Assembly (NCBI RefSeq): GCF_001687585.2
Contig: NZ_CP016537.2
Span: forward strand, 96,001 to 160,000
Direction of reading: 5' to 3'
DNA length: 64,000 nt
DNA from: Planococcus halocryophilus
Lineage (GTDB): Bacteria > Bacillota > Bacilli > Bacillales_A > Planococcaceae
The notes under the pieces were generated by a model. That model searched no databases. It was not told the DNA's origin and saw only the letters and a program-made list of their open reading frames with translations. Shown one piece after another: positions 12,890 to 63,446 of this stretch (position 1 is its first letter; every line of letters starts with the position of its first letter). The position numbers and the translations under genes were made by a program.

Positions 12890-12904
12890 GAATTTACTAT
12901 CATA

Positions 12905-13143
12905 AAAACGTTGACGAGAAGAAGTACATGTAGCAAGTTCTTTAGAGAAGATCCTCACCGGCTGAAAAGGATCTGTGCCGCTGCTACATGGAAATGCCTC
13001 TCCGAGTGCTGAGTCGAAATAAGTAGACCAGACGTTTCGCCTGCGTTATAGGCTTTCGAGAGAAAAGGACGTTTTGTTCTTTTAATCAGAGTGGAACCGC
13101 GCAATTATGCGTCTCTGTCATTTACATGACAGGGGCGCTTTTT
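12905..13143 (+). ncRNA. T-box leader, tRNA-Cys specific, with terminator
   Basis: Fills the 312-base gltX-cysE gap. Stem I pairs GAGA (12916-12919) with TCTC and ATGTAGCA with TGCTACAT. Its specifier loop has AGTA on one side (12923-12926) and the Cys codon TGC on the other (12995-12997). The T-box sequence AGAGTGGAACCGCGC lies at 13088-13102; its TGGA (13092-13095) would pair with a UCCA 3' end, as expected for U73 of tRNA-Cys. The terminator has GCGTCTCTGTCAT (13109-13121), loop TTAC, ATGACAGGGGCGC (13126-13138) and a T run. Uncharged tRNA-Cys should prevent termination. Confidence 0.95.
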
Positions 13144-20171: not shown

Positions 20172-20316
20172 GTTGTGAAATACCCATTTGTACCGCAGAC
20201 AGTAGGGGCGCTAGTCGCTTAATTTATCCCTGCCGAGGACATGATGAATTCAGTAAACATCTTTTTGATGCTGATTTTATGCCTCTGTGTCTGTAATGGA
20301 CCAGAGGCTTTTCTTA
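20172..20316 (+). ncRNA. L10 leader RNA with terminator
   Basis: The region holds the conserved leader segments ACCGCAGACAGTAGGGGCGC and CCCTGCCGAGGA typical of Bacillales L10 leaders (Rfam L10_leader type), to which the L10-L12 complex binds. It ends in a terminator: GCCTCTG (20281-20287) pairs with CAGAGGC (20302-20308), followed by TTTTCTT. Excess L10-L12 should favour termination. A reading frame through it that joins rplJ (from 20241) is judged spurious. Confidence 0.9.
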
Positions 20317-20354
20317 TGGACGGTATAAATGAGAAATCTATAGGAGGTGCCAAA

Positions 20355-59537: not shown

Positions 59538-59912
59538 ATGAGAAAGCTTCAACGTACAAGTTCTCAACGTAAAGCACTATTACGTGACCTTACAACAGAC
59601 TTAATCGTACATGAACGCATTCAAACGACTGAAGCTCGTGCGAAAGAAGTGCGTTCGACTGTAGAAAAAATGATTACACTTGGTAAACGTGGAGATCTTC
59701 ACGCTCGCCGTAAAGCAGCAGCATGGATGCGCCGTGAGTTGGTAACAACTGCAGACGCTGAAGGCAACGAAACTACAACTTATGCATTGCAAAAATTGTT
59801 TGATGATGTTGCACCACGTTACGCTGACCGTCAAGGCGGTTACACACGCATTATGAAAATGGGGCCTCGTCGCGGAGATGGCGCACCTATCGTTATTATC
59901 GAATTGGTTTAA
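59538..59912 (+). CDS. rplQ: 50S ribosomal protein L17
   Basis: Tunnel-exit region protein of the large subunit. The 124-residue product starts [20 protein letters not shown] and has [21 protein letters not shown] and [28 protein letters not shown] precedes the ATG. It is the last gene of the alpha part; a terminator starts 7 bases after its stop. Confidence 0.98.
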
Positions 59913-59918
59913 TCAATC

Positions 59919-59945
59919 GAAGGGGGTTAATAGCCCTCTTCTTTT
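59919..59945 (+). terminator. Terminator after rplQ
   Basis: GAAGGGGG (59919-59926), loop TTAATAG, CCCTCTTC (59934-59941) with one G-T pair, followed by TTTTA. Ends the S10-spc-alpha superoperon. Confidence 0.85.
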
Positions 59946-59960
59946 AGCATTATGATTTAT

Positions 59961-59990
59961 ACGACAATATGAAAAGCTGAGTGTTATGAT
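59961..59990 (+). promoter_or_regulatory. Promoter of the ecfA1 leader
   Basis: ACGACA (59961-59966), 18 bases, TATGAT (59985-59990) with the extended -10 element TGT. Weak -35, good extended -10. Transcription would begin near the GAGCGAGCC stem of the leader. Confidence 0.55.
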
Positions 59991-60112
59991 GAGCGAGCCG
60001 AAAGGCGGCGTCTCGTCTAGCTCTACGCACCTCATTCAACCCTGGCTTAAGCAACCGGGGAAGCCATAGAGACAGAAAAGCGCATTTCTCTGAATGAGGT
60101 GCGCGCTTTTTT
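59991..60112 (+). ncRNA. Attenuator-like leader RNA upstream of ecfA1
   Basis: Element 1: GCC-GAAA-GGC tetraloop hairpin (59997-60006) within GAGC/GCTC (59991-59994, 60020-60023). Element 2: CGCACCTCATTCA (60026-60038) pairs perfectly over 13 bases with TGAATGAGGTGCG (60091-60103). Element 3: AAAGCGC (60077-60083) pairs with GCGCTTT (60103-60109) next to a T run, a terminator. Elements 2 and 3 share bases and largely exclude each other. A 38-base core (60039-60076) lies inside element 2. I match it to no named riboswitch; the Rfam L17 downstream element is a possible relative by position only. Confidence 0.65.
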
Positions 60113-60200
60113 TATTTATTTACCCTTTTACAAACGCGCATAAAAACCAGTAGAGTAGAGATGAGAAGAGCAAAGCACGTGTTAGAGGAGGTCAGTTTAG

Positions 60201-61049
60201 ATGAATTCGATTATTTTGTCATTCGAAAATGTGACATTTACATATATGCAAGAAGACGAGTCGGTAAAACCGGCCGTGAAAGATTTATCGTTTTCCATTC
60301 AAGATGGAGAGTGGATTGCCTTAGTTGGCCATAATGGTTCAGGGAAATCGACTATCGCCAAATTAATGAATGGCTTATTGTTTCCACAGACTGGTAAAGT
60401 GGAAGCGATAGGGAAATTAATGACAGAAGAAAGTTTATGGGATATCCGTTCTCAGATGGGCATGGTATTTCAAAATCCAGACAATCAATTTGTAGGAGCG
60501 ACGGTTCAAGATGACGTAGCTTTTGCGTTAGAAAATAATGGTGTACCACATGAAGAAATGGTGGTTCGTGTAAAAGAGGCTCTGCAACAAGTAAAAATGG
60601 CTGATTACCTCGATCACGAACCCCATCATTTATCGGGTGGTCAAAAGCAACGTGTGGCAATCGCAGGTGCGCTTGCGATGCGTCCGCGGCTGTTGATATT
60701 AGACGAGGCAACATCTATGCTCGACCCTCAAGGTCGTATGGAAGTAATCGAGACCATTCGTGAACTTCGAAAAGCAACAGGGTTGACGGTTATCTCCATT
60801 ACGCATGATTTAGAAGAAGCGGCGCTCGCTGATCGTATTTTGGTAATGAATGCAGGCGAAAAACAATTAGAAGGCAAGCCGGAAGCTGTATTTCTTTCTA
60901 GTAACGAATTAACGAACTTAGGATTAGATTTGCCATTTTCAATGCGCATGACACATTTATTGCGCGAAGTTGGTGTTGAGCTACAAGGGGAACATATGAC
61001 AGAAGACGAATTGGTGGATGAACTATGGACATTTTACTCCAGGAAGTAG
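60201..61049 (+). CDS. ecfA1: ECF transporter ATPase A1 (EcfA1, CbiO-type)
   Basis: One of two ATPases of the energy-coupling factor module that powers uptake of vitamins and some metals through exchangeable S components. The 282-residue protein has Walker A GHNGSGKST from residue 43, signature LSGGQKQR, Walker B LLILDEATSMLD and the switch His in ITHD. GAGGAGGT precedes the ATG. It overlaps ecfA2 by 25 bases. No S component lies nearby, as usual for group II ECF systems. Confidence 0.95.
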   Translation: MNSIILSFENVTFTYMQEDESVKPAVKDLSFSIQDGEWIALVGHNGSGKSTIAKLMNGLLFPQTGKVEAIGKLMTEESLWDIRSQMGMVFQNPDNQFVGATVQDDVAFALENNGVPHEEMVVRVKEALQQVKMADYLDHEPHHLSGGQKQRVAIAGALAMRPRLLILDEATSMLDPQGRMEVIETIRELRKATGLTVISITHDLEEAALADRILVMNAGEKQLEGKPEAVFLSSNELTNLGLDLPFSMRMTHLLREVGVELQGEHMTEDELVDELWTFYSRK

Positions 61050-61897
61050 GATATAGTTACGCAAAAGATACGCCGTTTGAAAAACGAGCATTAACTGATG
61101 TTTCGCTGCATATCCCTTCTGGTTCCTATACGGCAATCATCGGCCACACCGGATCTGGAAAATCGACGGTTCTTCAGCATTTGAATGCGTTGTTAAAACC
61201 AACAGAAGGTTCGGTCATGATTGGTGAGCGTAAAATCAAAGCGGGAGTGAAAGCGAAAAATTTACGTGATGTGCGTCGTCAGGTCGGGATTGTTTTTCAA
61301 TTTCCTGAACAACAACTGTTTGATGAAACTGTATTAAAAGATATTATGTTCGGACCATTAAATTATGGTGTATCAGAAGAAGAAGCGAGTCGACGAGCAC
61401 ATGAGCTAGTTGATCAACTTGGGTTACCGCCAGAAGTATTAACAAAATCACCGTTTGATTTGTCAGGTGGGCAAATGCGCCGTGTAGCAATTGCCGGTGT
61501 TTTGGCAATGGAGCCAGATGTTTTAGTGCTTGATGAGCCAACAGCGGGACTAGATCCACGCGGACGCCGTGAAATCATGGATTTGTTTCATAGGCTTCAT
61601 ATTGAAAAAGGACTGACGACAGTCTTAGTGACTCATAGCATGGAAGATGCAGCGCGTTACGCAGATAACGTTGCAATCATGCACAACGGCCGTTGTGTGG
61701 TTACAGGCGAGTCTGTAGAAATCTTTTCAAATGAAGAGCAGTTACGGGACTACCGGCTAGAACCGCCACGGACTATTCGTCTTCAACAGAAGTTCGAAGA
61801 AAAATTGGGCATTAAGCTCGATTCAATTTCATTGACGGAAGAAGCATTGGCTAAAAACATTGCGCTTGCTTTATCGGAAGGGCGTGATTCCGAATGA
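61025..61897 (+). CDS. ecfA2: ECF transporter ATPase A2 (EcfA2)
   Basis: Second ATPase of the ECF module, forming a heterodimer with EcfA1. The 290-residue protein has Walker A GHTGSGKST from residue 40, the Q-loop FQFPEQQLFDETV typical of A2, signature LSGGQMRR, Walker B VLVLDEPTAGLDPRG and VTHSM. It starts inside ecfA1, with CAGGAAG-like weak upstream sequence, implying translational coupling, and overlaps ecfT by 4 bases. Confidence 0.95.
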   Translation: MDILLQEVGYSYAKDTPFEKRALTDVSLHIPSGSYTAIIGHTGSGKSTVLQHLNALLKPTEGSVMIGERKIKAGVKAKNLRDVRRQVGIVFQFPEQQLFDETVLKDIMFGPLNYGVSEEEASRRAHELVDQLGLPPEVLTKSPFDLSGGQMRRVAIAGVLAMEPDVLVLDEPTAGLDPRGRREIMDLFHRLHIEKGLTTVLVTHSMEDAARYADNVAIMHNGRCVVTGESVEIFSNEEQLRDYRLEPPRTIRLQQKFEEKLGIKLDSISLTEEALAKNIALALSEGRDSE

Positions 61898-62691
61898 TGG
61901 AGAAAATGATTTTTGGCCGTTTTATTCCTGGAGACTCCTTGATTCACCGAATGGACCCGCGAGCAAAGATTTCGTTTGTCTTTGTCTTTATTGCTATTGT
62001 CTTTATCGCAAATAGCGCGATGACGTACGGTATTCTACTAGGTTTTACTTTATTGGTCGTATTCTTATCTAAAATTCGCTTGTATTTTTTAATAAATGGC
62101 TTAAAACCGGTCTTTATTTTACTGATTTTCACGTTTCTTCTTCATATATTCTTTACACGCGAAGGGGAGTTATTAGTGGATATCGGGTTTATTAAAATTT
62201 ACGAAGAAGGATTGCGGCAAGGGATATTCATTTCGATTCGCTTTTTAGTATTGGTGTTTATCACGAGTATTTTAACGTTGACGACCTCACCAATTTCAAT
62301 CACAGATGGCATTGAAGTGTTGCTTGGGCCATTCAAGCGAGTTAAATTGCCTGTCCATGAACTGGCTTTAATGATGTCTATTTCGTTGCGCTTTATCCCG
62401 ACTTTAATGGATGAAACCGGAAAGATCTTAAAGGCACAAATGGCTAGAGGTTCAGATATCGGCTCAGGTCCAGTGAAAGAGCGTATAAAAGCAGTTGTTC
62501 CATTATTGATCCCATTGTTTGTTAGTGCCTTTAAACGAGCAGAGGACCTTGCTACGGCAATGGAAGTTCGAGGTTATCGCGGTGGCGAAGGCAGAACGCG
62601 TTATCGCCAGTTAAATTGGCGCTTAATAGATAGCTTAAGTTTAGTGGTACTGGCGGGTCTTGCGGGAATACTGGTCTATTTCCGTCTATAA
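61894..62691 (+). CDS. ecfT: ECF transporter transmembrane protein EcfT
   Basis: Membrane scaffold that links EcfA1-EcfA2 to the substrate-binding S components. The 265-residue protein has several hydrophobic spans in its first half and near the C terminus, and two coupling-helix motifs AQMARGSD and AMEVRGYRGG around residues 185 and 225, the paired X-Arg-Gly motifs known for EcfT. The ATG overlaps ecfA2 by 4 bases. The second motif has Val for the common Ala. Confidence 0.94.
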   Translation: MMEKMIFGRFIPGDSLIHRMDPRAKISFVFVFIAIVFIANSAMTYGILLGFTLLVVFLSKIRLYFLINGLKPVFILLIFTFLLHIFFTREGELLVDIGFIKIYEEGLRQGIFISIRFLVLVFITSILTLTTSPISITDGIEVLLGPFKRVKLPVHELALMMSISLRFIPTLMDETGKILKAQMARGSDIGSGPVKERIKAVVPLLIPLFVSAFKRAEDLATAMEVRGYRGGEGRTRYRQLNWRLIDSLSLVVLAGLAGILVYFRL

Positions 62692-62702: not shown

Positions 62703-63446
62703 ATGAAACGATTAAAAGCGACCATTGCATATGACGGTTCGGGATTTGCAGGTTATCAAGTACAGCCCGATTCACGTACGGTGCAACTTGAATTAATGAA
62801 AGTGCTAGAGACCATCCATAAAGGAAAAGTGGTTCAAGTGGTAGCGAGTGGCCGAACAGATGCTAAAGTTCATGCGACGGGTCAAGTTATTCATTTTGAT
62901 ACAGAACTGTCGATTCCGATAAGTGGCTGGTTAAAGGCGCTTAATGTCTTGTTGCCGGAGGATATTCGGGTCAACTCGATTGAAGAAGTAGATACATCTT
63001 TTCATGCGCGTTATCATACGACGGGCAAAACATACCGTTACAAATGGGATCGGAGTCAAATCATCAGTCCATTTACGCGTAGTTTGATGGTTCATGTTAA
63101 GCAACCATTAAATGTCGAAGCTATGAAAAATGCTTCTCAAGCAATCATTGGTACGCATGACTTTTCTAGTTTTTGTGCAGCCAATACAGCCGTAGTTGAT
63201 AAAGTTCGAACAGTAAGGCGATTAGACTTTGAAGAACACGGCAATGAGTTGCACATGATTATAGAAGGAACTGGATTTTTATACAACATGGTTCGAATTA
63301 TTGCGGGAACCTTAGCGGAAGTTGGCATGGGTAGAAGAAAAGCTGAGGAGCTCGAGGAAATTGTAGCTGCAGCCGACAGAGATGCTGCCGGGATAACAGC
63401 TCCAGCTCATGGTCTTTACTTGGAAAACGTGATGTATAGGAGCTGA
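62703..63446 (+). CDS. truA: tRNA pseudouridine(38-40) synthase
   Basis: Isomerises uridines 38-40 in the anticodon stem of many tRNAs. The 247-residue protein begins [20 protein letters not shown] and has the catalytic Asp53 in [10 protein letters not shown], followed by [12 protein letters not shown] and [16 protein letters not shown] of the family. AAGGAGAG precedes the ATG. It follows ecfT by 11 bases and precedes rplM, the B. subtilis order. Confidence 0.96.

Follow-up and report, generated by a model that had tools for sequence, protein, structure and literature searches.

An L17DE-related RNA element between rplQ and ecfA1A2T in Planococcus: a candidate terminator in the form of a three-way junction

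The region between rplQ and the genes of the shared ECF energy module raises the question of what the structured RNA encoded there does, and which of its two neighbours it serves. The window, meaning the whole 64,000-nt stretch of DNA that was analysed, covers positions 96001-160000 of a genome of 3,424,893 bases in one contig. Open frames on the forward strand, named by recognition, gave the gene order rpoA-rplQ-[element]-ecfA1-ecfA2-ecfT-truA, with the rplQ stop codon at 59910-59912, ecfA1 at 60201-61049, ecfA2 at 61025-61897, ecfT at 61894-62691 and truA at 62703-63446; the names of the last four were taken from an earlier note on this DNA and from recognition by eye. The element occupies approximately 59972-60113. 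In the earlier note it was considered a candidate riboswitch or attenuator of the ECF genes. The closest named RplQ relatives belong to Planococcus and Planomicrobium (up to 98% identity), and on this basis the window's genus (g1) was equated with Planococcus and its family (f1) with Planococcaceae; the names of other families were inferred, family f9 being probably Staphylococcaceae.

All features described below lie on the forward strand. Just 3' of the rplQ stop codon is a terminator-like hairpin followed by TTTT (T1; 59919-59945; GAAGGGGG/CCCTCTTC), which was read from the sequence, is absent from the output of the terminator scan, and by eye resembles hairpins found after rplQ in many loci of the family. 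A box conserved in the loci of the window's family, GATTTATACGACA (59954-59966), precedes the outer helix P0, the 5' strand of which, AAAAGC (59972-59977), pairs with 60105-60110. The hairpin P1 (59979-60023) corresponds to the L17DE core and consists of GAGT/GCTC, an internal loop GTTAT/TA, GATGAG/CTCGTC and an apical GCC-GAAA-GGC. It is followed by the helix PA, whose 5' arm CGCACCTCATTCA (60026-60038) pairs with the 3' arm TGAATGAGGTGCG (60091-60103), and by the hairpin hp2 (60040-60060; CCCTGG/CCGGGG, loop CTTAAGCAA). A local hairpin (60077-60106) rivals PA for the 3' arm, using CTC/GAG and GCGCA (60080-60084) with TGCGC (60100-60104), and has AAA (60077-60079) opposite the T run. The GC of the P0 3' strand and the U-tract (60107-60113) together form the predicted termination point, T2 (60105-60113). 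In some genera a sequence resembling the box, AUACGACA, was seen by eye to precede the local hairpin.

Direct reading agreed with the earlier note in finding PA to be a perfect 13-bp helix and in placing two mutually exclusive helices on the arm before the U-tract. The note had also described a hairpin at 60077-60109 running into seven T; both are present, and the T run is 60107-60113, so that an end at 60109 already includes three T. Of its two alternative pairings in the core, CCCTGG/CCGGGG is the conserved hp2, whereas GGCTT/AAGCC was found by eye only in some copies from the window's genus and g122.

The predicted fold of 59985-60115 has an energy of -48.0 kcal/mol, compared with -36.2 +/- 3.6 kcal/mol for shuffled sequences (z -3.30; 1 of 200 shuffles as good), and the fold of 59985-60078, in which the 3' arm is left out, was not unusual (z -0.93). 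As in an intrinsic terminator, a stable hairpin stands directly before a U-tract. The terminator scan lists this hairpin, and on its own is weak evidence because the number of terminator-like sites in 6 kb, eight, is near the 5.1 +/- 2.3 expected. The PA fold of the window is favoured over the local fold by 7.4 kcal/mol. When the growing chain was folded, PA was present before the U-tract was exposed and was in place as the polymerase got there. P0 was compatible with PA as well as with the local hairpin, and the long helix of PA and P0 is itself a terminator-like fold. The terminator/antiterminator architecture proposed in the earlier note was accordingly too simple: the competing helices exist, and the outer helix P0 had been missed.

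A search with Rfam at the gathering threshold revealed nothing at the element; elsewhere in the window a T-box leader (12902-13119) and an L10 leader (20175-20323) scored above their Rfam cut-offs. At relaxed thresholds the top score was for L17DE (RF01708) at 59978-60027, with 23.2 bits (E 0.039) against a cut-off of 37, while a second match, potC at 60093-60147, was taken as chance (22.0 bits, cut-off 44). The window strands UGAGUGUUAUGAUGA and GUCUAGCUCU match the L17DE model almost letter for letter, and the conserved L17DE strands UGAGUGUUAUGAUG and GUCUAGCUC are present with their pairs. The position directly 3' of rplQ is likewise that of L17DE, with T1 in between, and two orthologues of the same family reach the cut-off (G272 with 41.2 bits and G289 with 37.0). 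The relation to L17DE that the earlier note had suggested from the position after rplQ is therefore confirmed as homology. As the window copy scores below threshold, the 5' half of the element is best described as a diverged L17DE homologue, not as a member of that family.

L17DE was described by Weinberg et al. (2010; PMC2864571) as an element of undetermined function for which L17 feedback was proposed; it is tabulated there for Lactobacillales and Listeria, and has been located within an rplQ 3'UTR of about 180 nt in Enterococcus (PMC7724050). Of 299 Bacilli genomes searched with RF01708, 65 had a match at E <= 1; the cut-off was reached in 27, two of which belong to the window's family. 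Among 50 loci from this search, rplQ was present in 30 of 30 selected automatically and in 18 of 20 additional ones; two weak matches away from rplQ, L075 and, in a family genome, L079, were considered false and left out. In all 17 loci from family f26, L17DE lies behind rplQ and no ecfA1 is found in the flank covered. Some f26 loci (L033, L034, L036 and similar ones) carry AACACUCAUCAU after the second L17DE hairpin, which is complementary to GAGUGUU and AUGAUG of the L17DE 5' strand and could provide a competing pairing outside the Rfam match.

Conservation within the family is a stronger test of the element than the terminator scan. Of 131 family genomes, 129 gave an RplQ match, and these represent all 19 genera. 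A total of 133 family loci were collected, 90 via RplQ, 30 via DNA similarity to the leader and 13 via L17DE matches; some genomes are represented twice, RplQ-positive genomes are only partly included, and L165-L167, with no RplQ match in their stretch, were placed by motif. The element was present in 133 of 133 loci, comprising 103 distinct sequences from 19 genera. Every locus contained, in this order, the box TACG(A/G/T)C, GAGYGU, UYUAGCUC and GCUUUUUU, and every one contained GCTTTTTT, which represents the P0 3' strand and U-tract.

Covariation was assessed in an unrefined alignment for which 63 sequences covering the 19 genera were picked from the 103 distinct ones. The P0-P1-PA-hp2 fold had 90.8% of cells paired and 20 pairs with changes on both sides, in 168 cells. 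None of 500 shuffles reached its pairing, number of both-side pairs, number of both-side cells or covariation score, four of 500 reached the native value for further pair types, and controls with slid partners were 33.9-52.4% paired. PA was paired in 99.2% of cells and showed both-side changes in six of the 12 pairs counted (of 13), for example CACCUC/GAGGUG, CACCCC/GGGGUG and CAUCUC/GAGAUG. Both-side changes were also seen in eight of 11 pairs of the P1 upper stem; the base of P1, GAG/CUC, is invariant and paired in 63 of 63 sequences, which is uninformative on covariation either way. In hp2 the four upper pairs, paired in 70.2% of cells, all show both-side variation, its two lower pairs are paired in 42.1% of cells in this unrefined alignment, and its loop is near-constant in the family, with the consensus UUGAGCA. 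The four inner pairs of P0 were paired in 93.7% of cells, with zero both-side changes inside the family. The local hairpin was paired in 98.8% of cells (88.9% in a second register), also with zero compensatory changes. Within the family, PA, P1 and upper hp2 are backed by covariation, and P0 and the local hairpin by conservation.

Two other readings of the conserved sequences were rejected. The conserved TATGAT in P1 was considered as a promoter box, but GATG/CGTC becomes GATC/GGTC in g30, placing this stretch in RNA, and the spacing between the GAG of P1 and an ACGACA box upstream of it is not fixed (9-16 nt). A pseudoknot between UGAGC of the hp2 loop and GCUC of P1 fits at four bases in most sequences, but by eye the window's genus has UAAGC with GCUC unchanged.

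Since P0 showed no both-side changes inside the family, its support comes from comparison between families. The bases before GAGYG change together with the bases before the U-tract, giving AAGC/GCUU, AAGCC/GGCUU, ACGC/GCGU and AUCAUUU/AAAUGAU, and in enterococci, where the T run was correctly placed, a closing helix CACUUU/AAAGUG. The native P0 pairing energy averaged -5.26, compared with -3.52 when partners were permuted among groups, and 0 of 1000 permutations were as low (66 distinct rows, 25 3' segments); the heuristic for locating the U-tract chose the wrong T run in some rows (several enterococcal rows and L070), and the misassigned enterococcal rows are included in this figure. L17DE thus appears to sit inside a helix that closes on the U-tract. 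P0 apparently lies outside Rfam's L17DE model, because in the alignment to the window that model starts one base before GAGU. The P1 internal loop is near-constant across distant families.

A search of 398 Bacilli genomes with a covariance model, R1, built from the P0-P1-PA-hp2 fold gave matches in 128 at E <= 1, including 39 from the family; at E <= 0.001, ten families were represented. In the 20 of 89 non-family genomes with a match that were read, rplQ was located just upstream in 20 of 20 and ecfA1 downstream within the stretch in 19; the link of the element is therefore to rplQ. When 80 named rplQ loci were scanned with R1, matches were obtained in Rossellomorea, Neobacillus, Robertmurraya, Domibacillus, a record labelled B. 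subtilis, Listeria and others, while records of Geobacillus jurassicus, Anoxybacillus mongoliensis, Metabacillus idriensis, Priestia and B. pumilus gave no R1 match and nothing by eye. These comparisons would extend the L17DE-type element to Planococcaceae and to Staphylococcus-like and several Bacillaceae genomes. In 199 rows (66 of mixed origin and 133 from the family), ecfA1 was found downstream in 191, the match at L145 being weak, and was not in the downstream stretch of the other eight, which include Listeria and Lacticaseibacillus. The common denominator of the element loci is rplQ.

In f9 the T2 region resembles a described staphylococcal RNA. Sub-threshold matches to Sau-30 (RF02388; 31.0-49.6 bits, cut-off 70) were obtained there in five of 15 f9 loci, and the window scored 16.9 bits with part of the model. 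The matches in L205, L207, L210, L218 and L219 cover the T2 arm, that in L219 extending past the U-tract. Sau-30 has been reported upstream of ecfA in S. aureus (PMC6102330), and it may be a piece of the present element, not an independent small RNA.

The local hairpin was tested in single sequences by keeping the 3' arm and shuffling the 5' side (p < 0.05). It was better than chance in 60 of 66 family sequences, 12 of 14 from f9, two of three from f42 and the one from f38, and was not above chance in any of three from f29, two from f33 or the single ones from f44, f51 and f10; one match in f53 was discarded as PA itself. The local hairpin is thus confined to part of the tree. Of the two competing helices, whose joint conservation would be expected of a riboswitch, PA covaries, and the local hairpin is supported in f1, f9, f38 and f42 only, without covariation.

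Overall, the element probably serves the rpoA-rplQ transcription unit as a structured 3' terminator with a three-way junction, which acts conditionally and in some species as an attenuator of ecfA1. In this model P0 closes on the U-tract, and the two arms are P1, the L17DE hairpin, and PA, the 13-bp helix. Polymerase that has passed rplQ and T1 would stop at 60110-60113 when P0 forms together with PA or with the local hairpin. A factor bound at the near-constant internal loop of P1 (GUUAY/UA) could stabilise or destroy the terminator; such a factor could make or break it because P0 needs a folded P1 to join its two strands. The sequence, its conservation and the pairing support for P0, P1 and PA are shown directly, whereas we infer termination at T2, its regulation and the identity of the regulator; regulation is likely, and as ligand a protein encoded in the upstream operon is the best candidate, ahead of any vitamin. 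We recognised no description of P0, of an ecfA1 attenuator or of TRAP control of ecfA1 in the open-access papers searched.

Whether such a terminator would also gate ecfA1A2T depends on the DNA that follows it. The distance from the end of the U-tract to ecfA1 ranges from 15 to 504 nt in the 191 rows, and is 15-57 nt in 16 of them (25 nt in Domibacillus mangrovi), the ecfA1 start of L062 and the U-tract of L057 being doubtful among these short measurements. With 57 nt or fewer after T2, ecfA1 can hardly have its own promoter there, and a conditional terminator would gate ecfA1A2T where the ecfA1 start is within about 55 nt. The window itself has a possible ecfA1 promoter, TTTACA-N18-TAGAGT (60127-60156; 9 of 12 matches in the scan), the second box of which overlaps the NAG tract described below, although promoter-like sites were not enriched in the scan (15 compared with 12.7). 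In 28 of 35 distinct spacers from the genus and g122, TTTACA is found at a fixed distance of 16 nt from AG(T/C)AGAG while the bases between vary; this spacing, which was tested after being noticed, looks like a promoter in Planococcus. Promoter enrichment between T2 and ecfA1 was not clear in 115 family spacers (mean best score 7.23 compared with 6.92 for shuffles) or in 14 f9 spacers (9.36 compared with 8.99), and a promoter pattern seen by eye in f9 is only a lead. Given a promoter candidate between T2 and ecfA1, T2 need not control ecfA1 in the window or in f9.

The same spacer offers another route to ecfA1, and we regard the chances as about even that ecfA1 is controlled mainly by tryptophan-bound TRAP, which would block the ribosome binding site as for trpP, the terminator being incidental to ecfA1. 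Ten NAG triplets (60148-60199) lie over the ecfA1 Shine-Dalgarno sequence; eight of the nine spacers are 2 nt and one is 7 nt, and seven of the ten triplets are G- or T-first. A TRAP site has about 9-11 NAG triplets close to a translation start, most of them G- or U-first and separated by 2 nt, and the tract conforms to this description. Its score of 6.7, on a scale devised after the tract had been seen, is an outlier in the window, the next best of 12,784 overlapping 86-nt windows on both strands scoring 3.6 (mean 1.05, sd 0.44). A pattern of six AG occurs at two places in the genome, before ecfA1 and in the leader before trpD, with 0 matches for the reversed control, but a stricter pattern with G or T first in two triplets matched the trp leader only and missed ecfA1. 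The six-AG pattern was found in 111 of 131 family genomes, at sites partly identified, and there the reversed control also matches in many genomes. The leader before trpD has a second NAG tract (6.8) over the trpD start and, in L304 (1500-1860), a sequence that we take to be a T-box-like antiterminator, so that one trp operon in Planococcus may be subject to both T-box and TRAP control.

The distribution of TRAP is compatible with this reading. A TRAP gene is present in the window's genome (PF02081 at G000:C1:2026030-2026233, E 4.2e-39) and in each of the 131 family genomes; none was found in the single f4, f8, f9, f10 and f16 genomes searched. All 18 genus genomes searched have trpP. In the window's genome a tract scoring 4.2 precedes the trpP start; of three other species looked at, two have one scoring 4.8. 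In B. subtilis, TrpP is counted as an ECF S protein (PMC11487621). The ecfA1 tract was significant against dinucleotide shuffles in 84 of 116 family leaders, 28 of 32 from the genus and 32 of 61 named loci; it was mostly not significant in g30 (two of 13), g33 (none of three), g120 (none of two) and g127 (none of two), despite the TRAP genes there, and in none of 14 f9 leaders. In addition, if the candidate promoter is real, part of the tract would not be transcribed from it.

It is possible, and we hold it as a tentative alternative, that T2 is a plain, unregulated composite terminator that also stabilises the 3' end of the rplQ mRNA, the local hairpin being a lineage-specific backup with no switching. 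T1 and T2 stand in series, and T2 may serve as a backup to T1, which is already 3' of rplQ; P0 can form with either PA or the local hairpin, so that both could lead to an end at the U-tract. The lack of compensatory change in the local hairpin and the candidate promoter after T2 are consistent with this view, but the constancy of the P1 internal loop and of the hp2 loop goes beyond the needs of a terminator, and some loci leave ecfA1 little or no room for a promoter after T2.

A further suggestion, close to that of Weinberg et al. for L17DE, is that L17, S4 or RpoA binds P1 and acts from the 3' side on its own mRNA, altering how it terminates or how stable it is (such ribosomal protein control has been proposed in PMC2864571 and PMC7247131). 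The element follows rplQ in the loci read and the P1 internal loop hardly varies between distant families, but T1 separates rplQ from the element in the family, and searches for rRNA-like motifs gave results at chance level. In the 5.7-kb stretch with rRNA genes there was one match each for GTTAYGAT, TCTAGC and TTGAGCA and none for six other motifs, for which chance suffices, and mimicry of rRNA was rejected. We consider this suggestion doubtful in its specific form; it is a sub-case of the conditional terminator, not its opposite.

A metabolite riboswitch for the ECF module, in which a ligand on P1 or hp2 would switch PA against the local hairpin, is very improbable: mutually exclusive helices and a conserved hp2 loop do lie ahead of ecfA1, but the element follows rplQ even where ecfA1 does not adjoin it, the hp2 loop is not kept outside the family or in three g27 sequences (by eye), the competing hairpin was not found in several families and in the window is the weaker fold, and no known riboswitch aptamer reached the gathering score in the window, nor was there one in the ten matches that a search of 59900-60220 at E <= 10 gave. 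The riboswitch claim of the earlier note was therefore not upheld; a vitamin riboswitch at this element is unlikely.

The conditional terminator and the NAG tract could also act in one leader with three signals, in which the terminator responds to a ribosomal-operon product and gates ecfA1A2T, while tryptophan-loaded TRAP blocks ecfA1 translation; the terminator decision would be taken by exchange of PA and the local hairpin, or by making and breaking P0. This combination is unlikely as a whole. If it were true, Bacillales would couple the uptake of vitamins and of tryptophan to ribosome synthesis and to the supply of amino acids, and L17DE would gain a mechanism. The outer helix on the U-tract would in itself give L17DE a concrete role, as an arm of a three-way-junction terminator, and would connect it to staphylococcal Sau-30. 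From the NAG tract one would predict the shared ECF energy module to be part of the TRAP regulon; this would be sensible if TrpP is an ECF S protein.

Among known systems, T-box and trp leaders are terminator/antiterminator leaders with a hairpin, a U-tract and competing pairings. The element shares these features, but the base of its stem, P0, is closed across a three-way junction, and no known sensor domain was matched. TRAP sites have been described over the translation start regions of trpG, trpP and ycbK (PMC11255114); the NAG triplets over the ecfA1 start are arranged in the same way, and ecfA1, which is not on that list, is a site predicted from sequence. Sau-30 differs in having been described as a separate small RNA, only part of whose model is matched in the window. 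The closest likeness is to L17DE itself, which shares the position behind rplQ, the strands GAGYGUUAYGAUG and GUCUAGCUC, and the pairs GAGU/GCUC and GAU/GUC. L17DE-related elements of some families have an extra competing hairpin, and to the L17DE plan the element in the window adds the outer helix P0 on the U-tract and a long PA arm with hp2.
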